From NCBI GenBank assembly GCA_040754335.1, contig JBFMCV010000002.1, forward strand, positions 558,001 through 622,000: DNA of 64,000 nucleotides. Direction: 5' to 3'. Source of the DNA: Thermodesulfobacteriota bacterium (GTDB taxonomy: Bacteria > Desulfobacterota_D > UBA1144 > Nemesobacterales > UBA2774). The notes under the pieces were generated by a model. It ran no database searches. It worked only from the letters and a program-made list of their open reading frames with translations, and was not told where the DNA came from. This document shows, piece by piece, positions 11,776 to 32,486 of the stretch. Position numbers and translations under genes: made by a program. Numbering within the stretch: position 1 is the first letter of the stretch; the number at the start of each line of letters is the position of its first letter.

Positions 11776-11868
11776 TAATTTGGTTTGTGTAACTCTCGCG
11801 CATAAGTAAATGAGCGTACTTGCAATCAGCCGATAGCGACCGGTTCTTGCACACGTTCGGAACCGTTC
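11776..11868. mobile_element. J element, uninterrupted
   Basis: TAATTTGG left end and the right hairpin CCGGTTCT...GGAACCG. It sits in the middle of a G repeat, between CATACTGCG and TCGCAAAGACAG. Confidence 0.7.
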
Positions 11869-11963
11869 TCGCAAAGACAGATAAGAACTGGATTCCCGAT
11901 TAAGACATTCGGGGATGACGGAAAAGGAGAAGGGGATGGCGGACTTTCCACTGACGGTGCATA

Positions 11964-13409: not shown

Positions 13410-13455
13410 TTAAAAAAAGAGATCCTGAAATAAATTCAGGATGACAAAATATCTG

Positions 13456-13865: not shown

Positions 13866-14361
13866 GCGGGGGCGGGCGGCAGTGCGGACATAAGGGATTG
13901 CCGGTGTGAGCGGAAAAGTCCGCGGCCGCCGTGGGAAGGGCATTGTGTGCGCGTCGAATGGAGGGTCGGATCCGCTAAAATCCTCCCTACCCCTCCTTTA
14001 CGAAAGGAGGGAATTTAAGATAAAGGATGAGATTGCTTCGTCACTCCGTTCCTCGCAATGACATACTGGAGGAATCGCGGCTGGAAGCCGCTCCTACGGG
14101 TGTGATGTAGCATGAGATTGCCGCGGTCGCTCCGCTCCCTCGCAAAGACAGATAATTACAAATCCTCCCTACCCCTCCTTTACGAAAGGAGGGAATATAA
14201 GATAAAGGATGAGATTGCTTCGTCACTCCGTTCCTCGCAATGACATACTGGAGGAATCGCGGATGGAAGCCGCTCCTACAGCTGAGGAGTGTGACGATAC
14301 TCGACTAGGCTGAGGAGATTCGGAAGGATCGTAAAATGACACTATGTGTCTGCGCGTGTGC
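13866..14361. repeat. Gap with duplicated A-G-E repeat block
   Basis: After a GC-rich non-repetitive stretch, a block of A, G and E units occurs twice (about 13979-14100 and 14155-14282) with a full G unit (14114-14152) between, a roughly 120 bp tandem duplication. Confidence 0.65.
14114..14152. repeat. G repeat exemplar
   Basis: GAGATTGCCGCGGTCGC-tccgc-TCCCTCGCAAAGACAGA. Widespread; often opened by J or K (11491, 11776, 21141, 41429, 45218, 50341, 56521). Confidence 0.65.
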
Positions 14362-17351: not shown

Positions 17352-17431
17352 ATCTGATTTCGTTCGTTGAAATAATGTAAACCCCCACCCAAACCCTCCC
17401 CATTAAATCAAGGGGGAGGGAAGAAAATAAG

Positions 17432-17456
17432 GAGTGGGGGATGATCGCGGCGGCTT
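17432..17456 (+). pseudogene. IPTL tail fragment R1
   Basis: GAGTGGGGGATGATCGCGGC is the 5' part of the tail code (E-W-G-M-I-A-A), 167 bp after the same point in gene 8 and directly behind a B repeat. Confidence 0.75.
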
Positions 17457-17492
17457 GATTCGGAAATAGAGTAAATAATCCAGGAGGATAAT

Positions 17493-18011
17493 ATGAAAAG
17501 AATGATCGGTGTTCGTGCTTTCGTTGCGACGGCGGCTCTGGCCGCGATTATGTTTTTCAGCGTTTCCGCCCACGCACAGCCCGGGCAATGCTTCATAGAA
17601 TTTTGCAAAGAAGCCGAGGGGGTAGTGGGCGTTCCGTTTCAGTTTATAACGTTCACGGAAGTCAATCCCGAGCCGGTGATTCGTGTGCTCGATTCTGGCG
17701 AATGCGTCTCTGTACAGCTGAGCTCCGGGGAAGGGGCCAGTACGCTGATCGAGCTGCCTACGGGCGGATGGTCGTTCTCGGGGGTCGAATGCGACGTAAC
17801 GGACGGGCTCACCGTCACCCCGATCGAGAACGGCGCCGAGATCGAATGTCAGCCTGGCTTCATCGTTGAGACCACTTGCACGATCTCAAACGTGCGTGCG
17901 GTGTCGTCCATTCCGACATTGAGCGAATGGGGCATGATCGCGGCGGCGGGGGGGCTGATGATTGTGGGAGTGTTCTTCGCAATAAGGAAGAGAAGAGCGT
18001 TTAATTCTTAA
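17493..18011 (+). CDS. IPTL-CTERM surface protein 9
   Basis: 172 residues; CAGGAGGATAAT precedes the ATG. Signal peptide ends SAHAQ (about residue 28). The domain starts CFIEFCKEAEGVVG and closes with TTCTISNV, with IELPTGGWSFSGVECD at the turn. The tail is IPTLSEWGM, then GLMIVGVFFAIRKRRAFNS*. The AFNS ending recurs in proteins 13 and 16 and in fragment R2. Confidence 0.85.
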   Translation: MKRMIGVRAFVATAALAAIMFFSVSAHAQPGQCFIEFCKEAEGVVGVPFQFITFTEVNPEPVIRVLDSGECVSVQLSSGEGASTLIELPTGGWSFSGVECDVTDGLTVTPIENGAEIECQPGFIVETTCTISNVRAVSSIPTLSEWGMIAAAGGLMIVGVFFAIRKRRAFNS

Positions 18012-18067
18012 AAGAAAAATATAAATCCCCCCGACCCCCCCTTTACGAAAGGGGGGAATGTAAGAAG

Positions 18068-18154
18068 GAATGGGGCATGATCGCGGCGGCTGCGGGATTA
18101 GGATTGGTGGGCATATTCTTTGCGGTGAAGAGAAGGAAGGCGTTTAATTCTTAA
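18068..18154 (+). pseudogene. IPTL tail copy R2
   Basis: Encodes EWGMIAAAAGLGLVG, a hydrophobic stretch, KRRKAFNS and stop. It starts 143 bp after the equivalent point in gene 9. No start codon or ribosome site of its own. Confidence 0.85.
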
Positions 18155-18211
18155 AAAGAGAAAAGAATAAATCCTCCCTAACCCTCCTTTTTCTAAGGAG
18201 GGAATTAAAGG

Positions 18212-18273
18212 CAGGGTTGGCGATGGCGGGAGTGTGGTTTGCGGTGAGGAGAAGGAAGGCGCGGACTGTTTGA
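18212..18273 (+). pseudogene. IPTL tail fragment R3
   Basis: 3' part only, ending VWFAVRRRKARTV and stop, the same ending as gene 8. Its 5' half is replaced by an A repeat. Confidence 0.8.
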
Positions 18274-18353
18274 ATCTGATTTCGTTCGTTGAAATAATGT
18301 AAACCCCCACCCAAACCCTCCCCCTTAAATCAAGGGGGAGGGAAGAAAATAAG

Positions 18354-18382
18354 GAGTGGGGGATGATCGCGGCGGCGGCGGG
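18354..18382 (+). pseudogene. IPTL tail fragment R4
   Basis: 5' part only (E-W-G-M-I-A-A-A), behind a B repeat. With R3 it duplicates the gene 8 end plus R1. Confidence 0.75.
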
Positions 18383-18402
18383 AGGGGGGATTTAAAATAA
18401 TC

Positions 18403-18431
18403 TTGAATTAAGACTGAATTTGATCTAAAAT
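18403..18431 (+). promoter_or_regulatory. Promoter of IPTL gene 10
   Basis: TTGAAT, 17-bp spacer, TAAAAT at 18426-18431. Confidence 0.6.
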
Positions 18432-18463
18432 CCGGTTTAATTACATGATTGAAGGAGGATTGC

Positions 18464-18979
18464 ATGTATAAAAAATCAGGCAGTTTTCTTGCTTTTCTTC
18501 TATTAATTTCCTTCACAGCAGGCGCAGTTCTCGTGACGGGCCCAGCTAAAGACGCATGGGGTCAGCAGGGGTGTCAGATCGAGGTTATCAAGGCGGCGAT
18601 AGGTGAGGATACGAGTTTCGATTTCACCCGCATGGAGGGGGACTTGGTCCTCGGGGGGTTCACTCTTGTCCCCTTCGATGGAGCTTTTGTTACGGTAATA
18701 GGGCCGGGTACCCCCCTCACGGTTGTTGAGAATGTGCCTGACGGATGGCGGCTCGAGGACGTAATCTGTTTCAACGACGGCGTAGCCATTGAAGAGATCG
18801 AGAACGGGTTTATTGCGACTTGCACAGCCCCGGGGGAAGGTTTTGCGGAATGCACATTCTATAACGTGCAGCTGGATGTGATACCCACGCTGTCCGAGTG
18901 GGGTATGATCGCGGCTGCGGCGGGGTTGATGATCGTCGGTGTGTTCTTTGCGGTGAGGAGGAGACGGGCGGCTGTTTGA
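18464..18979 (+). CDS. IPTL-CTERM surface protein 10
   Basis: 171 residues from ATG 18464 (GAAGGAGGATTGC upstream). Signal peptide ends DAWGQQ (about residue 34). Close paralogue of protein 2 in CQIEVIKAAIGED, VPDGWRLEDVICFNDG and EIENGFIATC, although the stretch between residues 55 and 85 differs. Tail IPTLSEWGM, GLMIVGVFFAVRRRRAAV. Confidence 0.85.
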   Translation: MYKKSGSFLAFLLLISFTAGAVLVTGPAKDAWGQQGCQIEVIKAAIGEDTSFDFTRMEGDLVLGGFTLVPFDGAFVTVIGPGTPLTVVENVPDGWRLEDVICFNDGVAIEEIENGFIATCTAPGEGFAECTFYNVQLDVIPTLSEWGMIAAAAGLMIVGVFFAVRRRRAAV

Positions 18980-19047
18980 TGCAAGATGCAGGATATGCTC
19001 TGCGGCCCGTTCATACTTCGACCCTTCGACTTCGCTCAGGACAGGCT

Positions 19048-19135
19048 CGCAGATCAGTATTATCCTTGCTCCTGTATTTGGCGAAAGCTGAGTAGTGACG
19101 GAGCAATCGCGTATGAGCGCAGATTCTGCGCCTCA
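19048..19135 (+). mobile_element. L element 2
   Basis: Nearly identical to 10627-10715 and in the same position within an F repeat. Confidence 0.65.
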
Positions 19136-19303
19136 GTACGAACGGGTTTATGGATTCCCGATCGGCGCCTGCCCTGAACCATGTCCCGTACTTGATACGG
19201 GATCTATTCAGGGTCGGGAATGACAGATGTTAAAAGACAAAACGAGATGCTGAATAGATCACGGCTCGCAGGCCGGGACGTCGTTCAGCATGACAAGAAT
19301 GCG

Positions 19304-19341
19304 GAAGCCTCTTCCTCCGGTGCGGGGAAGGGGCTTTTTTT
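19304..19341 (+). terminator. Intrinsic terminator
   Basis: AAGCCTCTTCCTCC-loop-GGGGAAGGGGCTTTTTTT. Confidence 0.8.
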
Positions 19342-19421
19342 GGTGAGGCCCTCAAGTTTCATCGAGCTGGACAGGCCGGGTTAACGGTCTGTTAACGAGG
19401 GATGTAATTAATTAAAACTGA

Positions 19422-19450
19422 TTGATTACTCCCTGAAAATATTGTAAAAT
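19422..19450 (+). promoter_or_regulatory. Promoter of IPTL gene 11
   Basis: TTAAAA, 17-bp spacer, TAAAAT at 19445-19450. Confidence 0.45.
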
Positions 19451-19481
19451 CTCCCCAAGAAGCTCTTAAAAGGAGGATCCA

Positions 19482-19988
19482 ATGAGGAAAGTTTCGAGCC
19501 TTTCTGCCTGTCTTTTTCTATTATTTTTAATCGTTTCAGTATATTCCATCACACTTTTAAAGACGCCCGACGCAAGCGCGCAGCAGTGCGGCATAGGCAT
19601 CGGGAAATCCGCGCCCGGCGGGGGTAGCACTGAATTCGGGTTCGAGTTCACGGTCGACGGCGACGGACCCAATTTCGGAACCTTAGCGGACGGACAGTCT
19701 GATGGCGGGGGTTTTTCATCGACCGTCGTCGTGACTGAGCTGCCGCTTGAGGGATGGGAGCTTGTGGACATAGATTGCGAGAGCATCGGCGGAATACTGT
19801 TCGAAATTACTGATAACGGTTTCACGGCTGAATGCGTTGGGATCGGCGAAGGGTTCTGTGTGTTTTTTAACGTGCAGACGAGGAATATCCCCACGCTTTC
19901 GGAGTGGGGTATGATCGCGGCGGCTGGGGGGCTGATGCTGGTGGGAGTGTGGTTTGCGGTGAGGAGAAGGAAGGCTTTAAACATATAA
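19482..19988 (+). CDS. IPTL-CTERM surface protein 11
   Basis: 168 residues; AAAAGGAGGATCC precedes the ATG. Signal peptide ends DASAQQ (about residue 29). The domain starts CGIGIGKSAPGGGSTEF and has VTELPLEGWELVDIDCES, close to protein 5 in this region, and CVFFNV. Tail IPTLSEWGM, GLMLVGVWFAVRRRKALNI. Confidence 0.85.
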   Translation: MRKVSSLSACLFLLFLIVSVYSITLLKTPDASAQQCGIGIGKSAPGGGSTEFGFEFTVDGDGPNFGTLADGQSDGGGFSSTVVVTELPLEGWELVDIDCESIGGILFEITDNGFTAECVGIGEGFCVFFNVQTRNIPTLSEWGMIAAAGGLMLVGVWFAVRRRKALNI

Positions 19989-20045
19989 AAGAATAAATAC
20001 AAATCCTCCCTTGCCCTCCTTTGCCAAAGGAGGGAATTAAAATAT

Positions 20046-20132
20046 AAATGGGGGATGATCGCGGCGGCGGGGGGATTAGGATTGGCAGGAGTGTTCTTCG
20101 CTATAAGGAAGAGAAGAGCGCAGATCGTTTAA
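20046..20132 (+). pseudogene. IPTL tail copy R5
   Basis: Complete tail code (WGMIAAAGGLGLAGV..., RKRRAQIV, stop) starting exactly 144 bp after the equivalent codon of gene 11, with an A repeat between. Confidence 0.85.
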
Positions 20133-20209
20133 ATACTGTTGATTTATAAATGTAAGGTAACACCCCCACCCCAACCCTCCCCCCTTGATATGGGGAGGGA
20201 AATTAAAAG

Positions 20210-20240
20210 GAGTGGGGGATGATCGCGGCGGCTGGGGGAG
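20210..20240 (+). pseudogene. IPTL tail fragment R6
   Basis: 5' part only (E-W-G-M-I-A-A-A-G-G) behind a B repeat (about 20155-20205). Confidence 0.75.
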
Positions 20241-20273
20241 GCAGATATTCAATAGAGTATTGAGGAGGAAATT

Positions 20274-20783
20274 ATGCGTAAGGTTATCGCATCGATCTTG
20301 AGTTTTTTTCTTTTCCTTTTCGCTATATCCAGCGTATTTGCTGACAGGGCGGAGGCCGGCGGCGGTCAGCAAGCTTGTTCGATCGCGATCGCCAAAGAGG
20401 CAACTGTAGCGGGCATACTTTTCGAATTCCTCGTGGAGCCGTCGGTTGGGGATGATTTAATGATCAATACGGTTTCAGGTTCGTCGACCGGGTTTAATTT
20501 GAACTTCGGTCAGTCAGCCGTCGTATCCGAGATCGTGCCCGAGGGATGGAGGCTCGTTGACGTCACTTGTGAATCCGGTCCCGGTATTGCCATAATCATC
20601 GACGAAGAAAACAACGTGCTGATTAATTGCCTGACCGTCAGTGAGGGCGTATGCACTTTTACAAACGTACCGGCGGAGAACATACCCACGCTCAGCGAAT
20701 GGGGGATGATCGCGGCGGCTGGGGGGTTGATGATTGTGGGAGTGTGGTTTGCGGTGAGGAGAAGAAGGGGAAGGGCTGTCTGA
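20274..20783 (+). CDS. IPTL-CTERM surface protein 12
   Basis: 169 residues; GAGGAGGAAATT precedes the ATG. Signal peptide ends near ADRAEAGG (about residue 30). The domain starts CSIAIAKEATVAG and has VSEIVPEGWRLVDVTCESG and CTFTNV. Tail IPTLSEWGM, GLMIVGVWFAVRRRRGRAV. The gene follows fragment R6 by only about 30 bp, so its promoter must overlap the repeat zone or be shared. Confidence 0.85.
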   Translation: MRKVIASILSFFLFLFAISSVFADRAEAGGGQQACSIAIAKEATVAGILFEFLVEPSVGDDLMINTVSGSSTGFNLNFGQSAVVSEIVPEGWRLVDVTCESGPGIAIIIDEENNVLINCLTVSEGVCTFTNVPAENIPTLSEWGMIAAAGGLMIVGVWFAVRRRRGRAV

Positions 20784-21032
20784 CGAAGGATGCACGATGC
20801 AGGATGAAAAAACGAGATCCTGAAACAAGTTCAGGATGACAAGAATGTGAAATTCCCGATCGGTGCCTGCCCTGAACCGTGTCCCGTACTTGATACGGGA
20901 TCTATTCAGGGTCGGGAATGACAACCTTTGAAATCCCCCTTAGTCCCTCCTTCGACCCTTCGTCCTTCGACAGGCTCAGGATGAACGGAGCTCAGGACAG
21001 GCTCTTTTTCTAAGGGGGGAATGAAATGATAA

Positions 21033-21120
21033 GCGGGGGATGATCGCGGCGGCGGCCGGGCTGATGCTGGCGGGAGTGTGGTTTGCGGTACGCAGAAGAA
21101 AGATGCAGGATGCGGGATAA
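21033..21120 (+). pseudogene. IPTL tail copy R7
   Basis: GMIAAAAGLMLAGVWFAV, RRRKMQDAG and stop. The ending is that of proteins 1 and 5, not of the gene directly upstream. Confidence 0.8.
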
Positions 21121-21140
21121 AAGACGAGATTGCCGCGCTG

Positions 21141-21245
21141 CACTCGTATTCACTCGTAGATATATACGGAAAGTTCTTTGCAATGCATAGTTACTTTCTC
21201 ATACTCGGCCGAGAGCGACCGATTCCTCCCTCGGTCGAAATCGTT
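21141..21245. mobile_element. J element in a G repeat
   Basis: Lies between GAGATTGCCGCGCTGC and CTCGCAATGACAGG. The right hairpin is GACCGATTCCTC...GAAATCGTT; the left end is less like the consensus. Confidence 0.5.
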
Positions 21246-21367
21246 GCTCGCAATGACAGGCAACTGAAAATGTAAACCCTCTCACCGAAGAGATGATTTC
21301 GGCGGAGGCGAGTCAGAGAAGGATTGTTAAAAAATAATGCTATCAAACTTTTTTTCAGGAGGATCGT

Positions 21368-21874
21368 ATGCGTAACGTGTTAAATACATTATTGGGGCTT
21401 TCGCTCTTTGTTTTCGTAATACTCGGCATCTCGGGCAGCGCGAGCGCGCAGCAGTGTTTCCTGGAAATATGCAAGTTCGCGGAAGGCGCAGGAGAGACGG
21501 GCTTTACGATCAATTTCGACGAGGGAGGACAGACATTCTCGGTGGAGCTCTTCGACGGCGGCGATTGTTTTACAGAGTCTTTTGGTCCGTCACCCGATCT
21601 TGAGGTGACTGAAACGCCAACGCCTGGCTGGACGCTCCTAGATGTCGTCTGCCAAGGCAGCAGCGATATCTCGTTTACGAGCATACCAGAAGGTATAGAC
21701 GCCGATTGCAACACGACGGCAGAGGCATCAGCGACATGCACGTTCGTAAATGGACGGGGAGTGGCAGCTAATGTTCCAACGCTTTCTGAATGGGGGATGA
21801 TCGCGGCGGCGGGGGGATTAGTCTTGATCGGCGTGTTCTTCGCTCTTAGGAGAAGAAGAGCGTTTAATTCTTAA
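21368..21874 (+). CDS. IPTL-CTERM surface protein 13
   Basis: 168 residues; CAGGAGGATCGT precedes the ATG. Signal peptide ends SASAQQ (about residue 25). The domain starts CFLEICKFAEGAGETGF, with the ETPTPGWTLLDVVCQGS turn and CTFVNG. The tail is the variant VPTLSEWGM (Val for Ile), GLVLIGVFFALRRRRAFNS. No clear -35/-10 pair could be placed upstream. Confidence 0.85.
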   Translation: MRNVLNTLLGLSLFVFVILGISGSASAQQCFLEICKFAEGAGETGFTINFDEGGQTFSVELFDGGDCFTESFGPSPDLEVTETPTPGWTLLDVVCQGSSDISFTSIPEGIDADCNTTAEASATCTFVNGRGVAANVPTLSEWGMIAAAGGLVLIGVFFALRRRRAFNS

Positions 21875-21929
21875 AGGAAGAGAAAAATCCCCCCGACCCC
21901 CCCTTTACGAAAGGGGGGAATGAAAAGAT

Positions 21930-21995
21930 GAATGGGGGTTGATGATTGTGGGCGTGTGGTTCGCTGTGAGGAGGAGAAGGGCGTTAAACGGATGA
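21930..21995 (+). pseudogene. IPTL tail fragment R8
   Basis: Starts with the E-W-G codons 142 bp after the same point in gene 13 but lacks the IAAA codons; continues LMIVGVWFAVRRRRALNG and stop. Confidence 0.75.
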
Positions 21996-22056
21996 ACGAA
22001 TAACTGAAAATCCCCCTTAGTCCCCCTTTGCTAAAGGGGGGAATTAAAGAAAAGTA

Positions 22057-22077
22057 GGGATCGCGGCGGCGGGGGGA
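22057..22077 (+). pseudogene. IPTL tail fragment R9
   Basis: Only the GATCGCGGCGGCGGGGGG stretch, the piece missing from R8, behind another A-like repeat. Confidence 0.6.
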
Positions 22078-22091
22078 ATAACGAGATATAT

Positions 22092-22132
22092 GGAGCCCCT
22101 TCTCTCTAACCGGAGGGAAGGGGCTTTTTTTT
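22092..22132 (+). terminator. Intrinsic terminator
   Basis: GAGCCCCTTCTCTC-loop-GAGGGAAGGGGCTTTTTTTT. Closes the first run of IPTL genes. Confidence 0.85.
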
Positions 22133-22165
22133 GCGGCAATGGGGACGATAGTTTAATATTTAAGT

Positions 22166-22405
22166 ATGACCATGTTTGAAAAACCCGCGTGCCCGGAATG
22201 CGGCTCGCACGACGTCCTGCCGATAGTTTACGGCCTCCCGGGCCCGGAGCTCGAAGCGAGGGCCGTGAGGGGAGAGGTCGTGCTCGGCGGGTGCATCGTG
22301 TACGACAGCGCCCCCGACCTCCACTGCAAATCCTGCAATGCGGAATGGAATGACCAGAGGGCCAAGCGTCTTTTCGAGGAGCACGAGGGGGAGGACGAGT
22401 CATGA
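22166..22405 (+). CDS. Small zinc-ribbon protein
   Basis: 79 residues with a four-cysteine zinc ribbon: CPECG near residue 9 and CKSC near residue 54. Between them is GCIVYDSAPDLH. Similar small bacterial proteins are annotated only as zinc-ribbon proteins. No signal peptide. The start may be the second Met (residue 3). Terminator at 22583 downstream. Confidence 0.75.
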   Translation: MTMFEKPACPECGSHDVLPIVYGLPGPELEARAVRGEVVLGGCIVYDSAPDLHCKSCNAEWNDQRAKRLFEEHEGEDES

Positions 22406-22582
22406 TTCAGGATTTAGAATGCAGAAAAGCATTTTCCCCCTTTAGCAAAGGGGGATACAGGGGGATTTAAAACTAAATCCTCCCTAGCCCTCCTTATTCA
22501 AAGGAGGGAATTGAAAGACAAAAGATGAGAAGCTGAAACGATCCTGAAACAAGTTCAGGACATGGTTCAGCATGACTAATAA

Positions 22583-22620
22583 AAAGCCCCTACACTAGAT
22601 TCAGGTGAAAGGGGTTTTTT
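22583..22620 (+). terminator. Intrinsic terminator
   Basis: AAAAAGCCCCT-loop-AGGGGTTTTTT; a run of A before the stem may let it act in both directions. Confidence 0.75.
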
Positions 22621-22704
22621 GTTGTAATTTGAATATATCGCGGCTGGAAGCCGCTCCTACAGCATGGGAGTTGGAAGGAATCGAATACGAGCGCAGGTTC
22701 TGCG

Positions 22705-23175
22705 CTATTCGATGAAGCGGCGGCAGTCGGGGACCTTGAAGCTCTTGCCTATTACGTCCGACTCGGAGCGCAGCATCTCCGTGAATATTCCCCGGTAGTC
22801 GTTGTCCACCTTCGCGTCGTCGACCTTGAGCATGCAGGTCCCGGAATTGAGCGTCCCACGCGAGCTCACGTACACGGTATGATCGAAGAGCACGTATTCG
22901 AACGGGTTCTTCATCACCTGCCTGTTCCTGAGAGCGGCTATTCCGAAGACCGAGTAGAGGTCTTTCCCGGCGGGGTCGACAGTGAGCGTCTCGAGCGTCC
23001 CGAGCCTCTCGTTCCCGACGCACCTTAACGCGCAGAACGCCTTTATCTGCTCGTCGAGCACGGTCTCCTTTATCACCTGGTCCCTGATGTCTTTGGCGGC
23101 GATGAGCGCGGGGATGAAAAGCGACGCGCCCAGTAGGGCGAGCGCCGCGCACGCGAATTCGAGCGGCCGGTTCAT
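22705..23175 (-). CDS. Secreted or membrane-anchored hypothetical protein
   Basis: 156 residues from the ATG at 23175; earlier in-frame codons come from repeat-like DNA. An N-terminal hydrophobic helix (ACAALALLGASLFIPALIAA) is a signal or anchor. The mature part has several cysteines (CALRCVG, GTCMLKVDD, PDCRRF) and segments such as DLYSVFGIAALRNRQVM. Family not recognised. Confidence 0.7.
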   Translation of the reverse strand: MNRPLEFACAALALLGASLFIPALIAAKDIRDQVIKETVLDEQIKAFCALRCVGNERLGTLETLTVDPAGKDLYSVFGIAALRNRQVMKNPFEYVLFDHTVYVSSRGTLNSGTCMLKVDDAKVDNDYRGIFTEMLRSESDVIGKSFKVPDCRRFIE

Positions 23176-23606
23176 GGGTATAAGTTTAACCGCCGGGCGC
23201 GGGGATGAAAAGATGAGATTGCCGCGGTTGCTTCCGGCTACGCCATTCACCTTCGCTAATCTCCCGGCGGCTCAAAGCCTTTGGGCGGCGTACCGAGCTT
23301 CGGAGGATAAAAAGCTGCGCCGGACAAGCCGCAACCTCGCAACGACAGGAAAATTCATGTACACCCCCGCCCGCGCCGCCTCCGCTATCGCCCTTCGTTT
23401 AAACTTCGGTTGATAAAACGCTTCGGTTGCTTGCCCTCCCCCCTCAGTCGAGGGGGAGGCAAACTAATATGCGGGCGGAGGGGTCGGGCCGCCGGATTAT
23501 GCTGAGTAGCTGGATTGAGTCGTAAGATCACGCCGCGCGTGGTGTGCGCACCCATACTGGTATATACTTGCATGCAGATGTTCTACAGCCGAACACGGAG
23601 GCGGAT
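23176..23606. repeat. Gap with a K insert in a G repeat
   Basis: A G unit (GAGATTGCCGCGGTTGC ... CCTCGCAACGACAGG) is split by K-type sequence (about 23230-23330). A B-like palindrome lies at about 23437-23460. The rest holds nothing I can identify. Confidence 0.6.
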
Positions 23607-24044
23607 ATGAAGATTATCAGGACGGCGTTATTCACGGCGGTACTCCTGTCGGGCGTATGCGCGGCATACGCCGGGGACTCGATGAGCGAGGGCGAGAAGC
23701 TCGAGAGGAAGATGTGGACGATGATCATTGCCGGAAACATGGCCGCGGTCGAGTCGATGATCGCGCCCGGATTCCAGAGCGTCCACGGGGACGGGGCCAG
23801 GGACAGGGACGCGGAGATCAAGCTCCTCAAAGGGCTCGACCCGCTCAAGGTGCAGTTTTCCGATTTCAAGGTTACGGAGCAGGGGGACACCATCATTGTC
23901 ACCTACAGCGTGTCTGTCGCCGAGACAATCGACGGCAGGAGCCTCACGAACCCCGAGCCTACGCCGAGGCAGAGCGTGTGGATAAGAACTCCGTCGGGCT
24001 GGCAGTGGATCGCGCACGCGAACCTGAACCCGATGACGAAGTGA
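23607..24044 (+). CDS. Secreted NTF2-like (DUF4440-type) protein
   Basis: 145 residues. ACGGAGGCGG precedes ATG 23607; signal peptide ends CAAYAG (about residue 23). The remainder matches the NTF2-like/SnoaL fold of DUF4440 proteins: an EKLERKMWTMIIAGNMAAVESMI helix, the APGFQSVH strand, a DGAR-x-RDAEIKLLKG motif, then VTYSVSVAE and SGWQWIAHANL. Members are often ketosteroid-isomerase-like binding domains without known activity. The next gene starts 81 bp downstream on the same strand. Confidence 0.8.
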   Translation: MKIIRTALFTAVLLSGVCAAYAGDSMSEGEKLERKMWTMIIAGNMAAVESMIAPGFQSVHGDGARDRDAEIKLLKGLDPLKVQFSDFKVTEQGDTIIVTYSVSVAETIDGRSLTNPEPTPRQSVWIRTPSGWQWIAHANLNPMTK

Positions 24045-24125
24045 CCGCCCCCGGGCCGGGCACGATTCTCCACTGGTTTTCAGGGGCCGGTTTGGTATAT
24101 AATGTGAACGAACGGGCCCAGGGAG

Positions 24126-25508: not shown

Positions 25509-26119
25509 GGGGGGCAGCCCTGCGGGAGTGAAACCCTTTCATGCTTCGATCCTTCGTCCTTCGACCCTTCGACTTCGTTCAGGACAGGCTCGCAGATCAG
25601 TATTGTCCTTGCTCCGTTATTTGGCGAAAGCTGAGGAGTGACGGAGCAATCATATATGAGCGCAGATTCTGCGCCTCAGGGCGAACGGAGCTCAGGACAG
25701 GCGCGTAGTTCAGGGCCGGCTCCATTGTATGGCTAAGGCAGAGGAGTAACTGTGAGACTGTATACGAGCGCAGGTTCTGCGCCTCAGGGCGAACGGGTTA
25801 TATTTGATGGATGAATGAAAGGCGACACCCCCATCCTGTCCTTCCCCCTTGCATGGGGGAAGGAAATTAAGAGAAAAGATGAGATTGCCGCGGTCGCGAT
25901 CCTGAACGATCCCGAAATAAATCCTGAAACAAGTTCAGGACGGCGTTCAGGGCATGATTCGGGACAGGCTCCTGGCCCTCTCCCCTCGTGTGGAGGGAGA
26001 GGGAACTTCTTGGTTGGGCCGAGGAGTCGGATGGAATCATTAAACACACTATGTGTATGCGCGATAGAAAATTACGAAAAATCCGGCATAATTAAAAGTG
26101 ATTTTCAGGAGGGTGAGAA
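25509..26119. repeat. Gap with two L elements
   Basis: F units flank L elements at 25591-25679 and about 25702-25786; then B (25823-25868), a long C-type composite (about 25900-25965) and a second B-like unit. A CATAAT at 26087-26092 may be the -10 of the next gene. Confidence 0.6.
25591..25679 (+). mobile_element. L element 3
   Basis: GCAGATCAGTATT start and GCGCAGATTCTGCGC hairpin end, inside F. A diverged relative with GCGCAGGTTCTGCGC follows at about 25702-25786, also inside F. Confidence 0.6.
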
Positions 26120-26725
26120 ATGAAAATGATCGATCTGAAATTTGCAGCAGTCATAGCGCTTTCACTCGCAGCCCTGGCCGCGGGGTGCAACAAGAACGCA
26201 CCCGGGCAGGCGAGCGCGCCTGCGTATACGGCGGCGTCTTTCACGGCCGACCAGGTGACGCGGGGCGCCGAGCTGGTGAACGAGTGGAAGTGCAACTTCT
26301 GCCACACGCCCGAGCTCAAGGGCCCCGACGGGAAGCCGATACCCAACCCGGAAAAACTGCTTTCCGGCCACCCGCAGGACGAGCCTGTGCCGGACGTGGC
26401 CGAAATGGTCATAACATCGGACGCGTTCATGGAATTCCTCGACAACCTCGACAACACGACGTGGGCGTCTAACGACACGCTCGTCTTCTCGGCGAACCTC
26501 ACGCCCGACATGGAGACGGGAATAGGGGCGTGGACGCCCGATCAGTTCGTCGCGACGATAAGGCAGGGGCAGCACATGGGACTCGGCAAGAGGCTGCTGT
26601 ACCCGATGCCGTGGCAGGAGCTCGCGGAGCTTCCGGACGCTGACCTCGTATCCATATACGCGTATCTCCGTACAATCGACCCCGTAAGCAACAAGGTCCC
26701 GCCGCCCGTGATGCTTTACAGGTGA
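26120..26725 (+). CDS. Monohaem cytochrome c lipoprotein
   Basis: 201 residues. Lipobox LAAGC with Cys23 marks lipidation. One haem site, CNFCH at 58-62, and a distal-Met candidate in the YPMPWQEL motif. The NLTPDMETGIGAWTPDQFVA and DADLVSIYAYLRTIDPV segments match the cytochrome c subunits that accompany membrane dehydrogenases. It should carry electrons in the periplasm, anchored to a membrane. AGGAGGG precedes the ATG. No dehydrogenase partner lies nearby. Confidence 0.85.
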   Translation: MKMIDLKFAAVIALSLAALAAGCNKNAPGQASAPAYTAASFTADQVTRGAELVNEWKCNFCHTPELKGPDGKPIPNPEKLLSGHPQDEPVPDVAEMVITSDAFMEFLDNLDNTTWASNDTLVFSANLTPDMETGIGAWTPDQFVATIRQGQHMGLGKRLLYPMPWQELAELPDADLVSIYAYLRTIDPVSNKVPPPVMLYR

Positions 26726-26780
26726 GGGGGGAGGACGCAGGCGTTACAGGACTGGATGGCGAAAATGAGAGTCTGATTGG

Positions 26781-27641
26781 CTATGGGGTTCCGTAAATAC
26801 CTTTTTTTAGTTCTATCAAAAGGGTTTTACATTTGTCGAGATCTCTGTCGAATGTGATTGATCGTCCGACCATTGTTGTTGCTAATTTAAATTGTCCGGC
26901 TTCATCCGTTTCTTCGTCAAGAATACGGAGGATCAATTCTTTCGTTTCTTGTTTGACTATCGCTTCTATATCGTGTCCAAGAAGCCTCGCGCCTGCCTCT
27001 TCTATACGGTGGTCGAGCTCTTCCATGATATTGTATTTTTCATTGAAGAGACGGTCTTCATTACCCGCCTGGTAATAGTGCTTTATTATGTGCGCCAGGT
27101 CTGAGGCGTCTCTGTCCTCACCCGCTCTCCTATCATTCCATGAAATGAGTTTCAGCGCCGTCAGTCCGGGGAGAGATGCCACCTTTGCATCGAGCACGGG
27201 TTCAGCCCTTAACCTGACCCTGAGAGTGTTTTCATACGCCTCACTGAATCCGATAACACTCATGGAGGTTTCGTTCTCAGGCGGCCATGTGATTTCACCT
27301 TCAGAGTTCTGAATCTGTCCGAATGGAATTATGTCGATGTATTGTTCTTCTTTATATATAAAGCTGTGTGGGCTTCGATCCTTTCTGAATCGTCCCGTTT
27401 CGAGCAGCGCTGCTGAAAGAATATTATATTGCTCCCAGTTTTCGACTTGTATTGCCAGGTCGAGATCCCTGGTCGCCCTGAAGGAACGTATTCCGTATCC
27501 CAGCTCGAGTATTAGATCCCTTGCTGTCGCACCAATAACGAAGAAGGGTATTCCCAACGAGCCCGCGATCCTGGATATGTCTTCGAATATCGGAATTAAC
27601 CCGTCAGTTCTCCCCGATAAGTCCAGCAATCTCTCTGTCAT
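26781..27641 (-). CDS. AbiEii-type nucleotidyltransferase (type IV toxin)
   Basis: 287 residues from the ATG at 27641; an earlier ATG at 27674 is possible. The nucleotidyltransferase motif is GATARD (37-42) with RATRDLDLAI (Asp59, Asp61). The central SLPGLTALKLISWNDR motif is typical of AbiEii/AbiGii-like toxins. In type IV systems this protein modifies a target nucleic acid and limits phage or growth, countered by the upstream antitoxin. It overlaps the antitoxin gene by about 38 bp, so they are translationally coupled. Confidence 0.85.
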   Translation of the reverse strand: MTERLLDLSGRTDGLIPIFEDISRIAGSLGIPFFVIGATARDLILELGYGIRSFRATRDLDLAIQVENWEQYNILSAALLETGRFRKDRSPHSFIYKEEQYIDIIPFGQIQNSEGEITWPPENETSMSVIGFSEAYENTLRVRLRAEPVLDAKVASLPGLTALKLISWNDRRAGEDRDASDLAHIIKHYYQAGNEDRLFNEKYNIMEELDHRIEEAGARLLGHDIEAIVKQETKELILRILDEETDEAGQFKLATTMVGRSITFDRDLDKCKTLLIELKKGIYGTP

Positions 27642-28758
27642 ATAAAATTCCTGCCGTCTCGATGTTTCGGGCATCGCCTGTCGCCAGCAGATCGGCGTAA
27701 ACGATTATTAGAGGAGCGATACCAAGATGTTCGTTCTGATTATCAGGATTAAATCTGTCGTCCCAGAATTGCCGCAGTATCTCGACATTGACTTTCGGAT
27801 CGTGTCTCATCTGCAGATCGCGTAACAATTGAACCGGCATTTGTTTCGCATAAATCGTTGCGGCCCCGGGCTTGAGGTGACCAGTGAGTTTTGCCGCAGC
27901 GACCTCCCCGCCCCAAAGTGCGCCGTAATTTCTGATATCTGTATTCTGCCACCAGTAATCTTGCATAGCGGTATAACGTCCGAGAGTGAGTGCCGGCCTT
28001 AATTTCTCGTTGTATTCCTCGACCCATTTGTCGAGTAATTTTTTTCTGTCGACGAGTCTGCGGTGCTTGCGTCTTTGCTCTTTTTTAATTTCGACTAAGA
28101 ACCCCTGCTCTTTGAGGTGTCTTATGACCCATCCGACCGTGCCCAGAGCCACGTCTGCGGTTTTTGCTATTTTACGATACGGGGCATTTACGAGATCCCT
28201 GTCACAGAGAAGAGCAAAGACAACTTTTAAACCTGCGGGTTGAAACGCTTGGTTCCTCGGCTCTCTCATAAAAAGAGCGGGGGGAAAGAATTCTGGAGTA
28301 AGCTGTAAAAGCGGCGCGCCTATTGTTTGAGTTTTATTCTCGTTCTCGAATTCATAAGTCCTCGTGTGTTCGCCGGGTTTATTGCCCTTAATGAATATAT
28401 GCAAGCCCGGCTCTTTTAAATATGCGTTCCCCACAGCGTCAATGTAAGCAATATCTAATTCCTTTAATTTGTCGGCTATATTCGGATTAACGTAATCCGT
28501 GATGATCAGACCCTTTCGCGTGAATCTGCGGATTCGGTCAATTACCGTGCCGAGTATGGGCTTGGTGAGTCTCGCTTTGACTTCGACGGCGTAGAGGTAT
28601 TCTACTCCGTCCTTTTTCAAGCGTACTAAGGCATCCGGCACTTGTCCCGGTGTATCTTTATCAATTTGATCGAGACGATAGTCCACCCCAGTGGTATTTT
28701 TAAATACCTCCAGTGCATATCGCAGCAAACCAGTCTCTAATTTCACCCTTTTCATCAT
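27604..28758 (-). CDS. AbiEi-family antitoxin with nuclease-like N-terminus
   Basis: About 385 residues. The N-terminal 150 residues have an EYLYAVEVKARL strand (E-x-K) and GLIITDYVNPNIADKLKEL, an arrangement seen in PD-(D/E)xK-like domains of AbiEi_2 regulators. A winged helix follows (ALLCDRDLVNAPYRKIAKTADVALGTVGWVI, in part), then a C-terminal region ending near DLLATGDARNIETAGILYD. It should bind its own operator. GAAG lies 6 bases before the ATG at 28755; ATGs at 28758 and 28773 are alternatives. TTGTACAA repeats lie just upstream. The two-gene unit is a phage-defence or stability module. Confidence 0.83.
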   Translation of the reverse strand: MMKRVKLETGLLRYALEVFKNTTGVDYRLDQIDKDTPGQVPDALVRLKKDGVEYLYAVEVKARLTKPILGTVIDRIRRFTRKGLIITDYVNPNIADKLKELDIAYIDAVGNAYLKEPGLHIFIKGNKPGEHTRTYEFENENKTQTIGAPLLQLTPEFFPPALFMREPRNQAFQPAGLKVVFALLCDRDLVNAPYRKIAKTADVALGTVGWVIRHLKEQGFLVEIKKEQRRKHRRLVDRKKLLDKWVEEYNEKLRPALTLGRYTAMQDYWWQNTDIRNYGALWGGEVAAAKLTGHLKPGAATIYAKQMPVQLLRDLQMRHDPKVNVEILRQFWDDRFNPDNQNEHLGIAPLIIVYADLLATGDARNIETAGILYDREIAGLIGEN

Positions 28759-28772
28759 ACGCTTCAGATGCA

Positions 28773-28894
28773 TTGTACAATATAGATTATTGTACAATAT
28801 TATTGAACATACGGATTATTTGTACAAATGTCAAGATACTTGTTCAATATTGTCTTGTGTTCAATATTATTGTACTCATTGTCAGATTGTACAA
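28773..28894. promoter_or_regulatory. TTGTACAA operator array
   Basis: Perfect TTGTACAA dyads at 28773-28780, 28790-28797, 28820-28827 and 28887-28894, with near matches (TTGTTCAA) at 28840-28847 and GTGTTCAA at 28857-28864. They fill the region upstream of the antitoxin gene. Autoregulation is inferred. Confidence 0.7.
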
Positions 28895-29006
28895 TTACAG
28901 AATATGTTGAAGAATATCAGGATAATACGAGGTTATCGGAGCATTTAGGATTGGATTTCCCTCCTAAGCACTAACCTTTAATAGGGGGTTGTCATCGAGT
29001 ATCTTT

Positions 29007-29639
29007 TCAATTCGCGGGGGAGCAGCGGAAGACGCGGAGCGGGGTTAATTTCCCCGTCTCTAGATCGAAGGAAATTTTCTCTTCGTACTCGACGCCGAGC
29101 CCCTGCTGTTTCCATTCGGACGCCTCGGGGCAGGGAATCTTCGCGAGCGCGCCCTCAATCTCGTCACGCGTCTCGTAATACGTAAAGACGCCGTCCTCTA
29201 TCTTCGCGTCCGAGTACCTGACAGCGCGGAGCGGATATGTCTTCTCTCTCATGTCGAGGATGCTGATCGTGCGGTATGACGGGCCCGTGCCCTGGTCTAT
29301 GAAGAGGTATCTCCCCGAGACGCCCGCGAAGAAGCCGGCGTCCGCCGCGCCTGCAGGGACGGAGTAATACCTGGCGCCCTTGACGGCTCCGCAGGGGTCG
29401 GCAACCTTCTCGGAGGGCTTGTATACGTCTATGTCCCGGCCGGGCGTGTCCGCTGTTTGCCTTACATATATGGTATATTCCCTATAGACATAGGCCGCGC
29501 CGTCCGGGCACACGGCCGCTTCCGGCGTGTCCGTGCCGGGGAGGAGCGAGACCGACGGGGGCGCGGGGGCATCTTCGCCTCCAGCGCTCATGAGGAGCGA
29601 CGAGAGAAAGAGGGCCGCCGCGGGGAGGGCTTTACGCAT
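29007..29639 (-). CDS. Secreted hypothetical protein, paralogue of 14362-15027
   Basis: 210 residues; signal peptide through about residue 20 (LFLSSLLMSAGGE). It shares the IYxR, DIDVYKPS, YYSVPAG, YLFIDQ and IPCPEASEWKQQG landmarks with the protein at 14362. An internal insertion replaces the N-terminal region. It lies just left of the second IPTL run, as its paralogue lies within the first. Function unknown. Confidence 0.75.
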   Translation of the reverse strand: MRKALPAAALFLSSLLMSAGGEDAPAPPSVSLLPGTDTPEAAVCPDGAAYVYREYTIYVRQTADTPGRDIDVYKPSEKVADPCGAVKGARYYSVPAGAADAGFFAGVSGRYLFIDQGTGPSYRTISILDMREKTYPLRAVRYSDAKIEDGVFTYYETRDEIEGALAKIPCPEASEWKQQGLGVEYEEKISFDLETGKLTPLRVFRCSPAN

Positions 29640-29703
29640 CCGGGTGATTATACACGGACGCGGGAGCGGGCGGAAAGGGGGCGGGCGCCCTTAATTTGCG
29701 CGC

Positions 29704-29732
29704 TTGCAAAAGATTTTCAAAAATCGTAAAAT
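29704..29732 (+). promoter_or_regulatory. Promoter of IPTL gene 14
   Basis: TTGCAA, 17-bp spacer, TAAAAT at 29727-29732. Confidence 0.6.
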
Positions 29733-29763
29733 AGGAACAATCTGATCATTGAGGAGGATTGGA

Positions 29764-30297
29764 ATGGCCAGACTCGCGATACGGTTTTTCCTTATGTTTT
29801 CAGTAGCTTCCGGCTTTCTGACACTATCGTCGCAGGGAGGGGAGATAATTATCCCCCCTGGAAATTGCGCATTTGCCATTTTTAAACTTACACCGCAATT
29901 CGAAGGCTCTATACCGTTCGAATTCATCCAGTCGGTGAACGGGGTCGAAACCCAGATCACTGTCAACTCGAATTTCGTAGGGCCGCCCGATTTTATTTTC
30001 GTCGACCAGGGAGACACCGTAAGCTTCACGGAGCTGCCGCAGGAAGGGTGGACACTTGAGGAGATCGACTGCTTCGAGGGAGTTGGCGTCGAGATCACGA
30101 AGTCTGAGGACTCCGTAACCTTCGAATGCGTCAATCCGGTCGGTGAATTATCCGGTGCGTTCTGCGGCTTCTTTAACAGGGTGTCGGCGGATAAGATTCC
30201 GACGCTGTCTGAGTGGGGAATGATCTCAGCCGCGGCGGGGCTGGGATTGATAGGTGTGTTCTTTGCGGTGCGGAGGAGAAGGGCGATTAATTCTTAA
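29764..30297 (+). CDS. IPTL-CTERM surface protein 14
   Basis: 177 residues from ATG 29764 (GAGGAGGATTGG upstream). Signal peptide ends near SSQGGE (about residue 24). The domain starts CAFAIFKLTPQ and is closely related to protein 16: both have IPFEFIQ / VPFEFIQ, NGVET, the ELPQEGWTLEEI turn and DSVTFECVNP. Tail IPTLSEWGMISAAAG ending RRRRAINS. It begins a three-unit 144-bp tandem repeat of its own 3' end. Confidence 0.85.
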   Translation: MARLAIRFFLMFSVASGFLTLSSQGGEIIIPPGNCAFAIFKLTPQFEGSIPFEFIQSVNGVETQITVNSNFVGPPDFIFVDQGDTVSFTELPQEGWTLEEIDCFEGVGVEITKSEDSVTFECVNPVGELSGAFCGFFNRVSADKIPTLSEWGMISAAAGLGLIGVFFAVRRRRAINS

Positions 30298-30354
30298 AGA
30301 AAGAAATGCAAATCCCCCCGAACCCCCCTTTAAGAAAGGGGGGAATGAAAAGAT

Positions 30355-30441
30355 GAGTGGGGGATGATCTCGGCGGCGGCGGGATTGGGATTGATAGGCG
30401 TGTTCTTCGCGGTGAGAAGGAGAAGGGCGATTAATTCTTAA
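30355..30441 (+). pseudogene. IPTL tail copy R10
   Basis: Full tail code from E-W-G-M to RRRRAINS and stop, 144 bp after gene 14's copy; same ending and same following A-like repeat. Confidence 0.88.
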
Positions 30442-30498
30442 AGAAAGAAATGCAAATCCCCCCGAACCCCCCTTTAAGAAAGGGGGGAATGAAAAGAT

Positions 30499-30585
30499 GA
30501 GTGGGGAATGATCTCAGCCGCAGCGGGGCTTGGGCTGATCGGAGTGTTCTTTGCGGTGCGGAGGAGAAGGGCGCAGTCTGTATAA
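30499..30585 (+). pseudogene. IPTL tail copy R11
   Basis: Full tail code, 144 bp after R10, but ending RRRRAQSV, a different tail. Confidence 0.88.
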
Positions 30586-30701
30586 AAGCGACCAAGAAGA
30601 GATAGAAGATGAGATCTTGAGTTGGATCAAGATGATTGAAAAATTGAGCTCCTTTCCTCAGGGAAGGAGTTAAAGCAGCTAGATCTTTGAGGAGGATTGG
30701 A

Positions 30702-31214
30702 ATGGTTAAATTCATATTCAATTCTTTGGTTATCCTGCTAACGGCCGCGGGGATGCTGGCGATTACGGCCGGTACCGGCTTTTCACAGCAAGACCAGTGC
30801 AGAATTGTCATTACAAAATCTACTGAGCCCGATTCTTCGGAGGTGTTCGATTTCATCAGCATCGTCAACGGTGTCGAAACACAATTTAGTGTGGCCGCTG
30901 GTGGTCAGGAGGACGGCGCGATAGTAAACGAGGGAGAGTCCGTCATTGTGACCGAGGTGCCGCGTGAGGGATGGCGGCTCGAAGAGGCCGATTGTTTTTT
31001 CCTCGACGGAGCGGTAGCCCTGCCATACCCGGGCGGTGTTCAGGTTTTGTGCACCGAGGGGGGAGAGTTTAACGGCGCAAACTGCATTTTCCGCAACAGG
31101 CAGATTCCTGAAATTCCCACGCTCTCCGAGTGGGGTATGATCTCTGCGGCGGCGGGGCTTGGATTGATCGGCGTGTTCTTTGCTGTGAGGCGGAGGAGGA
31201 TGCACGCTGTTTGA
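30702..31214 (+). CDS. IPTL-CTERM surface protein 15
   Basis: 170 residues from ATG 30702 (TTGAGGAGGATTGG upstream). Signal peptide ends near GFSQQ (about residue 28). The domain starts CRIVITKSTEPDSSEVFDF, with EVPREGWRLEEADCFF and CIFRNRQ. Tail IPTLSEWGMISAAAG, GLIGVFFAVRRRRMHAV. No separate promoter is obvious; it could be read from the promoter of gene 14. Confidence 0.85.
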   Translation: MVKFIFNSLVILLTAAGMLAITAGTGFSQQDQCRIVITKSTEPDSSEVFDFISIVNGVETQFSVAAGGQEDGAIVNEGESVIVTEVPREGWRLEEADCFFLDGAVALPYPGGVQVLCTEGGEFNGANCIFRNRQIPEIPTLSEWGMISAAAGLGLIGVFFAVRRRRMHAV

Positions 31215-31260
31215 TTTAGTCGGATCTTTTATAAAGTAAGGTAAACCCCCACCCGATCCT

Positions 31261-31432
31261 GATTTGGTTTAGGTGAGATTGAGTCTGTGGTCGATGTGTT
31301 TTGTGCCTTCGTTCGAGGGCGACCGATTGCGCAATTTGTATTAATGTTCCAATTACCATACACACTCCCTCAATAGTAATCAGCCGGAAGTGACCAGTTC
31401 TTACGCTTGCTCAGAACTGTTGCTTGCAATCG
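31261..31432. mobile_element. Nested J pair
   Basis: Outer arms GACCGATTGC (to about 31330) and GCTTGCAATCGT (from about 31421) pair with each other. Between them an inner J runs from AATTTGTATT to the hairpin CCAGTTCT...AGAACTG. Confidence 0.7.
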
Positions 31433-31688
31433 TCTCTCAAGGGAGAGGGAAAAAGCAATCGCGTCTGGAAGCCGCTCCTACAGCTTATTAAAGGCGAGAT
31501 TCCCGATCAGGTCGGGAATGACAAAGAAAAGAATGAGATTGCCGCGTCGCATACTGCGCTCCTCGCAACGACAGGCCAGGGCGATATTGCCGCGGTCGCG
31601 ATCCTGACACGGGGAAAGGGTTTCTTTTAAGAGTATTTGCGTCCCCGTACGGGGCGATCGGGGGCCGGTAACTGCCTGCTCCATAATA

Positions 31689-31717
31689 TTGAAAAAATTG
31701 TCCCGAAATCGTATAAT
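31689..31717 (+). promoter_or_regulatory. Promoter of IPTL gene 16
   Basis: TTGAAA, 17-bp spacer, TATAAT at 31712-31717; one of the best in the set. Confidence 0.7.
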
Positions 31718-31746
31718 TGATCAACTTGTCTTGAAGGAGGATCGAT

Positions 31747-32277
31747 ATGGTTAAACACTCTTTGAGATTTTTCCTTATGATTACAGTGGTTTCCTGTTTT
31801 ATGGCTGTTTCGGCGAGAGCCGGGGTGTTCCAGATACCTGATGACAATTGTGGATTTGCAATTATTAAAGTCACGCCCCAGACGGAAAGCGTACCTTTCG
31901 AATTCATACAGAACCTGAACGGGGTCGAAACCGAGATCACTCTCTTCTCGAATCCCGAGAAAGAGCCCGAAATCCTGTTCCTCGACCAGGGGGACTTCTT
32001 AACATTCACGGAGCTGCCCCAGGAAGGGTGGACGCTCGAGGAAATAACATGTTTCGAAGGCGCGGGCGTGGATATAACCCAGACCGAGGACAGCGTGACA
32101 TTCGAATGCGTCAACCCGGCCGGAGAATTTTCGCTGGCGTTCTGCCTGTTCGCCAACAGGATTTCTGCGGACAAGATTCCGACGCTGTCTGAGTGGGGAA
32201 TGATCTCAGCCGCGGCGGGGCTGGGATTGATAGGTGTGTTCTTCGCTCTTCGCAGGAGAAGGGCGTTTAATTCTTAA
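31747..32277 (+). CDS. IPTL-CTERM surface protein 16
   Basis: 176 residues; GGAGGATCGAT precedes the ATG. Signal peptide ends SARAG (about residue 25). Sister of protein 14 across the whole domain (CGFAIIKVTPQ, ELPQEGWTLEEITCFEG, DSVTFECVNPAGE). About 75 bp of tail-coding DNA are almost identical to gene 14 while the ectodomains differ more. Ends LRRRRAFNS. Confidence 0.86.
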   Translation: MVKHSLRFFLMITVVSCFMAVSARAGVFQIPDDNCGFAIIKVTPQTESVPFEFIQNLNGVETEITLFSNPEKEPEILFLDQGDFLTFTELPQEGWTLEEITCFEGAGVDITQTEDSVTFECVNPAGEFSLAFCLFANRISADKIPTLSEWGMISAAAGLGLIGVFFALRRRRAFNS

Positions 32278-32327
32278 AAGATAAATCCCCCTTAATCCCC
32301 CTTTTTCTAAGGGGGAAATGGAAAGAT

Positions 32328-32414
32328 GAGTGGGGGATGATCTCTACGGCGGCGGGGCTGGGATTGATCGGAGTGTTCTTCGCGGTGAGGAGAAGAAGGG
32401 AAAGGGCTGTCTGA
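32328..32414 (+). pseudogene. IPTL tail copy R12
   Basis: Full tail code (EWGMISTAAGLGLIGVFFAV, then RRRRERAV and stop), 137 bp after the equivalent point in gene 16. Confidence 0.85.
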
Positions 32415-32435
32415 ATTCACTTGGATTATTAATGT

Positions 32436-32486
32436 GAGGTAAACCCCCACCCAAACCCTCCCCCTTCTCAAAGGGGGAGGGAATTT
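32436..32486. repeat. B repeat exemplar
   Basis: AAACCCCCACCCAAACCC then TCCCCCTTctcaAAGGGGGA and GGGAA. Other copies: about 11403-11453, 36011-36064, 40267-40313, 41791-41838, 48151-48190, 62484-62530. Confidence 0.75.

Follow-up and report, generated by a model that had tools for sequence, protein, structure and literature searches.

Integron gene cassettes, each a coding sequence plus a palindrome, are inserted serially at one site, newest first. Integrative and conjugative elements (ICEs), prophages, and genomic islands that enter the 3' ends of genes restore the gene with an end that the element itself carries, and the original end is displaced. The silent cassettes of pilS and vlsE are promoterless fragments that lie beside expressed genes and donate to them in conversion tracts. 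At Rhs loci, start-less C-terminal fragments found downstream resemble the displaced ends of full-length genes, and in Salmonella, an orphan rhs-CT can recombine back onto the main gene (PMC3967940). Here, we analyze a 64-kb stretch (hereafter, the window; G000:C2:558001-622000) within a 3.26-Mb draft genome of Candidatus Dadabacteria, in which start-less copies of a protein sorting tail lie behind genes that end in such a tail. We consider it probable that these copies are former gene ends. A unit made of a tail, its stop codon, and a palindrome would insert at the junction GAR|TGGGG, give the gene a new tail, and displace the old one. A literature search found nothing on displaced CTERM tails.

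From about 9 to 32 kb, the window carries a row of short secreted proteins, every one with an IPTL-CTERM sorting tail (TIGR04174, PF18203) at its end. The tails have the features of this family: a C-terminal IPTLxEWG motif, a transmembrane stretch, and a basic end. Several of the genes score above the curated cut-off of the IPTL-CTERM profile and others just under it. Matches to a SpaA-like prealbumin fold in some of the proteins are weak and below cut-off. The exosortase XrtH (TIGR04177), the enzyme expected to read these tails, scores above cut-off in each of the four genomes in our within-genus comparison, namely the window genome (G000) and three congeners.

Empty and filled sites in two congeners

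Alignment of a locus shared by two of the congeners, G001 and G003, shows insertion of a unit together with displacement of the old tail. The G001 locus (G001:C30) was located by a search with the unusual orphan tail of the G003 locus (G003:C42). The two are syntenic, with 89% identity over 1.07 kb of downstream flank and 69% over 806 nt of gene bodies. At G001:C30, two tandem genes have tails of the form WGLGIFVALxGIAA.WALRRR, with neither palindrome nor orphan. At G003:C42, both genes have a tail of the form WGMIASA.GLMLIG.YFALKRKKIQVI, then a palindrome of type B, and then a start-less orphan, (W/R)GLGIFAAxFGxAAVWALRRR, of the type that ends the G001 genes. The first of these orphans shares 52-56 of 69 nt with the G001 tails, compared with 23 of 69 for the present tail of its own gene.

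In the alignment, the G003 inserts are placed exactly at the SE|WG codons and, counted between successive W codons, are 160 and 161 bp long. The sequence shared by their two sides is just 8 bp (GAGTGGGG). The two inserts are 96% identical and the two orphans behind them 83%, and the inserts are thus younger than the tails that they displaced.

At this locus, gene bodies follow orthology (60-65% amino acid identity across species), whereas tails follow the genome. Tails are 84-93% identical in amino acids within G001 and within G003, and 27-40% identical between G001 and the other two genomes. In the window genome, the four genes at this locus (G000:C8) bear a third type of tail, and no A or B palindromes or orphans lie just behind them. 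At a second locus, the body is 68% identical in amino acids across species and the tail is unrelated from the W codon onward. These alignments show that tails have been swapped between species at the SE|WG codon. One G001 tail without the IPTL motif (G001:C15), which resembles a frameshifted or fused gene, was set aside. On another G003 contig (G003:C18), the sequence breaks off a few bases past the stop codon of a tail-swapped gene, as expected if a repeated unit comes next.

We propose the following model. A cassette would consist of a tail from the WG codons onward, its stop codon, and a palindrome of type A or B; it would end in GAR and measure about 137-167 bp. It would enter an IPTL-CTERM gene precisely between the SE and WG codons (GAR|TGGGG), and its tail would become the new exosortase-H sorting signal of that gene; the protein would stay sortable because the cassette supplies this signal. 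The former tail would be shoved behind the palindrome, where it would lie as a start-less, stop-terminated orphan. Repeated insertion would build arrays stepped at about 137-167 bp, ordered from the newest tail, joined to the gene, to the oldest at the far end. Orphans would later erode to short 5' pieces (such as R1, R4, R6, and R9 in the window) or vanish, which would complete the swap. Insertion might be driven by template switching during replication or by a recombinase; because the shared core, GAGTGGGG, is only 8 bp long, either is likelier than ordinary recombination over long homology.

Two regularities extend beyond the G003 locus. The junction codon GAR|TGGGG is the same in three genomes, apart from small variants. 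Tail endings are also paired with palindrome types: the endings xNS, LNI, and FNT are followed by palindrome A, 8-17 nt past the stop codon, and endings in V or I by palindrome B, 29-33 nt past it. This pairing holds in two species, with a single exception (Lg1, where MQDA occurs with A). From the identical junction, the make-up of the unit, and the coding constraint on the orphans (below), we infer that the arrays of the window arose by the route seen in G003.

Orphan tails in the window

Behind the genes of the window lie 12 stop-terminated copies or pieces of the IPTL tail. Six are full-length (starting at 18071, 20049, 21034, 30358, 30502, and 32331), two are partial (18216, 3' part only; 21933, with an internal deletion), and four are short 5' pieces of about 20-30 nt (17435, 18357, 20213, and about 22057). 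Each is preceded by a palindrome of type A or B. A sequence-only reading of the window had described 12 such copies, separated by A or B palindromes, after the genes that it numbered 8, 9, 11, 12, 13, 14, and 16 (here g7, g8, g10, g11, g12, g14, and g16), and all of them are present. We count tail starts at the W codon of SEWGM, three bases later than that reading, which began at GAG. Within the genome, copies of the unit match one another with non-self BLAST E-values as low as 1e-42, and their recurrence is therefore not due to chance. Genome-wide, a profile search found 43 tails, of which about 10 are in short open frames, all of these in the window or in a second array on the same contig outside it (C2:528616-529020).

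All features of the arrays are on the forward strand (+). Behind g7, whose current tail (17268-17351) reads WGMIAAAAGLMMVGVWFAVRRRKARTV followed by a stop, palindrome B (17384-17420) precedes R1 (17435-17457), an orphan tail cut down to a 5' piece. The current tail of g8 (17928-18011, FNS ending) is followed by a palindrome A stem-loop (18036-18056), orphan o8.1 (18071-18154, WGMIAAAAGLGLVGIFFAVKRRKAFNS followed by a stop), another palindrome A (18182-18202), and orphan o8.2 (18216-18274), of which only the 3' part with an RTV ending remains. Palindrome B (18316-18342) and the truncated 5' piece R4 (18357-18383) come next. Together, o8.2, this palindrome, and R4 are a copy of 17288-17454 at 95% identity. 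The current tail of g10 (19905-19988, LNI ending) precedes palindrome A (20014-20034), orphan o10.1 (20049-20132, QIV ending), palindrome B (20175-20199), and the truncated 5' piece R6 (20213-20238). Orphan o11.1, behind g11 (21034-21120), reads RGMI...MQDAG followed by a stop, with a W to R change, and is preceded by an interrupted palindrome A.

Behind the current tail of g12 (21791-21874, FNS ending) are palindrome A (21898-21918), the internally deleted orphan o12 (21933-21995), palindrome A again (22022-22040), and R9, a short tail piece (22057-22080). The gene g14 (29764-30297) has a SpaA-like body, a weak match below the Pfam cut-off, and an IPTL tail at 30214-30297 with an INS ending. 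It is followed by palindrome A (30323-30343), orphan o14.1 (30358-30441), a palindrome A (30467-30487) with a flank identical to that of the preceding one, and orphan o14.2 (30502-30585, QSV ending), presumably the oldest tail of g14. The gene g16 (31747-32277; current tail 32194-32277, FNS ending) is followed by palindrome A (32296-32316) and orphan o16.1 (32331-32414, ERAV ending).

The spacing of these tails is regular. In the g14 array, tails at 30214, 30358, and 30502 are separated by two steps of exactly 144 bp; the step is also 144 bp behind g10 (19905/20049), 143 bp behind g8 (17928/18071), 142 bp behind g12 (21791/21933), and 137 bp behind g16 (32194/32331). Behind g11, where other repeats intervene, it is 334 bp (20700/21034). 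Counting from W codons thus reproduces the 144-, 143-, and 142-bp steps that the sequence-only reading had given for its genes 14 and 11, 9, and 13, respectively, and the differing endings that it had pointed out (INS, INS, and QSV in the g14 array; MQDAG at o11.1) are correct. Its statement that the copies lack a start codon needs qualification: no in-frame start lies upstream of them in the window, but tails of the WGM type all hold an ATG at their third codon, a few bases past the GAR codon.

The orphans remain coding-like. Full-length orphans differ from the adjacent tail at 6-23 of 72 bases (8-32%). Relative to the tail of g14, o14.1 has nine synonymous and no nonsynonymous differences, and o14.2 has six and none, respectively, over 24 codons. 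When the six full-length orphans of the window are pooled with the two full-length ones of the second array, the ratio of nonsynonymous to synonymous differences (pN/pS) against gene tails is 0.35, compared with 0.31 among genes. We simulated decay by mutating random gene tails neutrally and scoring how often the observed ratio was reached without stop codons. The success rate fell from 24% of trials with 3% decay to 6% with 5% and 0.3% with 8%, and with 10% no trial succeeded. The constraint is compatible with only about 5% neutral decay, and since the observed divergence is 8-32%, the orphans are not decayed copies of the neighboring tail. In addition, the tail nearest to o8.1 is that of g2, and the tail nearest to o10.1 is that of g12, rather than that of the gene in front of each.

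Tails are also subject to ordinary gene conversion. A run of 71 nt in g14 (30193-30263), which covers IPTLSE plus the first half of the tail, is identical to 32173-32243 in g16, against a background identity of 74%. The pairwise homoplasy index (PHI) test for recombination among tails gave P = 0.005 at the shortest window (9 nt) and nonsignificant results at longer ones; near-saturation of the sites with incompatibilities deprives the test of value here.

Alternative origins of the arrays

The sequence-only reading had offered two origins for the copies: repeated duplication of a tail-plus-palindrome unit, with the copies as a store for exchange of 3' ends by gene conversion, or debris of palindrome slippage. 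The unit is real, and so is the exchange of tails, as seen in the discordance between bodies and tails and in the 71-nt run shared by g14 and g16; a role of the orphans as donors is a hypothesis. Repeated duplication of a gene's own tail is a poorer model than insertion, because in G003 a foreign unit stands before the old tail. Slippage debris fails to explain orphans that remain coding-like. Neutral decay of an old duplicate of the adjacent tail would have gone far past the roughly 5% that the constraint allows, although conversion after duplication could still mask such an origin.

A fuller form of this idea is that slippage at palindromes, with GAG/TGAG microhomology between the right flank and GAGTGGGG, copied a tail and its palindrome in tandem, and that conversion by other IPTL genes later overwrote the tails and left the spacers identical. 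The exact 144-bp units and identical spacers of the g14 array, the GAR spelling common to orphan and own gene at g8, g12, g14, and g16, and the clear g14/g16 conversion tract are all in its favor. Other palindromes of the window also lie within recent tandem duplications of purely intergenic modules, at 11602-11886 (97 bp, 99%; palindrome at 11680) and 13978-14284 (83 bp, 96%; palindrome at 14173). We nevertheless think it unlikely as the general explanation. It leaves the filled and empty sites of G003 and G001 unexplained, where the gene has gained a foreign tail and the native type stands behind the palindrome, and o8.1 and o10.1 are closer to distant genes than to their own. Slippage followed by conversion may still be the source of some copies in the window. 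An orphan might instead be the end of a former neighbor gene that lost its body through a deletion reaching from the palindrome flank to the GAGTGGGG of that gene. The tandem arrangement of the genes suits this idea. So does G003:C144, where a complete IPTL tail with an FNT ending and palindrome A stands without a body just upstream of another such gene, as well as G001:C42, where a RAV-stop remnant precedes a palindrome B (interrupted by another module) and an orphan tail, with no intact IPTL gene. Such an origin is improbable, in that it would require repeated deletions with an identical, codon-precise end point, twice in G003 alone, and the same body bears an LGIF tail in G001 and a MIAS tail in G003.

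Coding constraint would also be expected if the orphans were selected for themselves, as membrane peptides of about 25 amino acids translated from the ATG of WGM, with purine-rich GAR or GGAG just upstream. An in-frame ATG is indeed present in the orphans of G000 and G001. This origin is very improbable, given that the G003 orphans have no ATG at that position (TGG GGG TTA), that the SEWGM codons create the same ATG context within every IPTL gene, and that several orphans are truncated. Repeats of 144 bp in draft assemblies are a classic assembly hazard, but the arrays are almost certainly not artifacts of misassembled short repeats: the full-length orphans differ from the adjacent tail at the 6-23 positions noted above, the window lies on a contig of 644 kb, and the arrangement recurs in independent assemblies of two other species.

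Insertion of a tail-bearing unit with displacement of the old tail is thus the reading that we favor, and several points weigh against it. We found no recombinase linked to the cassettes, and a shared core of 8 bp is little for homologous recombination of the ordinary kind. Some orphans share their GAR spelling with their own gene, and in the g14 array, the two A spacers match exactly, as do the first two tails at their 3' ends, with nine differences in the first part of the tails; both patterns would also fit local duplication followed by conversion. The comparison rests on four genomes, three of them fragmented, and among the three congeners, the window genes have no close orthologue (bodies at most 45% identical) that could provide an empty site.

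A bolder form of this reading, which we put forward only tentatively and regard as doubtful, is a dedicated site-specific system, in which units of about 150 bp (a sorting tail, a stop, a palindrome, and GAR) would move from one IPTL-CTERM gene to another through recombination at the 8-bp core GAGTGGGG. The core would be fixed because every target must keep its SEWG codons. The sorting motif would then double as an integration site, and the arrays would record the tail history of each gene, newest first.

Insertion of such units would offer bacteria a concrete route for exchanging sorting tails among many surface proteins, and would explain how CTERM tails in one genome can be more alike than the protein bodies that carry them. 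The availability of both empty and filled sites permits the ends of the unit to be read. If the unit is mobile by itself, it would be among the smallest known elements that keep the host gene functional by means of a replacement end.

Palindromes and comparison with known systems

Palindrome statistics were drawn from 567 kb of the genome, in which we found 88 A or B palindromes with the flanks AAATCC.../...AATTAAA. They are strongly clustered, with 52 in the 64-kb window compared with 4 in 400 kb elsewhere (G000:C1:1-400000). Upstream of them lies a third pyrimidine box (e.g., 13971-14034, 30303-30343, and 32427-32480) that is the mirror image of a hairpin arm and covaries with the arm type. 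For the 52 window palindromes, the mirror match is 0.814, compared with 0.698 +- 0.009 when partners are shuffled. The palindromes could thus fold as a hairpin plus a third strand (triplex). An Rfam scan of the window from 8 to 40 kb gave no match, and a search outside the genus for the pattern of palindrome plus tail gave matches only at the level of a reversed-pattern control.

A different repeat reaches into the tails themselves. The KMQDA and MQDAG endings of several tails are encoded by the intergenic repeat ATGCAGGATGCA (9682-9730, 13385-13410, and 21090-21125), a case in which intergenic repeat DNA is turned into a protein end. Modules of yet another type, GTAGGAGCGGCTTCCAGCCGC, flank in inverted orientation the single Y1/RAYT-like transposase gene of the genome (G000:C8, about 99.5-100.1 kb), and also occur in the window at 14066, 14248, 22629, 31450, and 37959.

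The A and B palindromes share with the GTAG repetitive extragenic palindromic (REP) sequences of REP-associated tyrosine transposase (RAYT) systems a position often just past coding regions, with some within genes (PMC3733652). Unlike those of these REPs, their hairpins carry neither GTAG nor CGTC at the foot, and the genome's single Y1 transposase is not directly flanked by A or B. The missing tag, and a transposase flanked by another module, rule out the A and B palindromes as GTAG REPs. RAYT as their mover is likewise unsupported, the Y1_Tnp gene being flanked by a different, GTAG-type hairpin family.

Compared with integron cassettes, the tail cassettes would hold only the end of a gene and not a whole gene. 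In the genome, a search for an integron integrase yielded nothing above the family cut-off, only sub-cut-off tyrosine recombinases, as in all control genomes. Relative to mobile elements that insert at the 3' ends of genes, the entire element would be about 150 bp and non-coding except for the tail. Unlike in pilS and vlsE, the part exchanged is a conserved sorting signal, not an antigenically variable part.

The closest parallel, on our comparison, is the displacement of orphan ends in Rhs and contact-dependent growth inhibition (CDI) systems. There too (PMC3967940), C-terminal coding fragments without start signals lie downstream, as do the orphans of the window and of G003, and the G003 orphans share their tail type with intact gene ends in G001. 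Rhs/CDI ends consist of a toxin domain paired with its immunity gene and have long homology at their borders (522 bp at 95%; PMC3967940). The tails described here are 27-codon sorting signals only, with no toxin domain or immunity gene. The cassettes differ further in the palindrome within the unit and in the 8-bp core at the single documented insertion site. They would thus work like Rhs/CDI orphan-end displacement without being a member of it, and would extend C-terminal displacement to a case unconnected with toxins, with a target site set by a protein motif.

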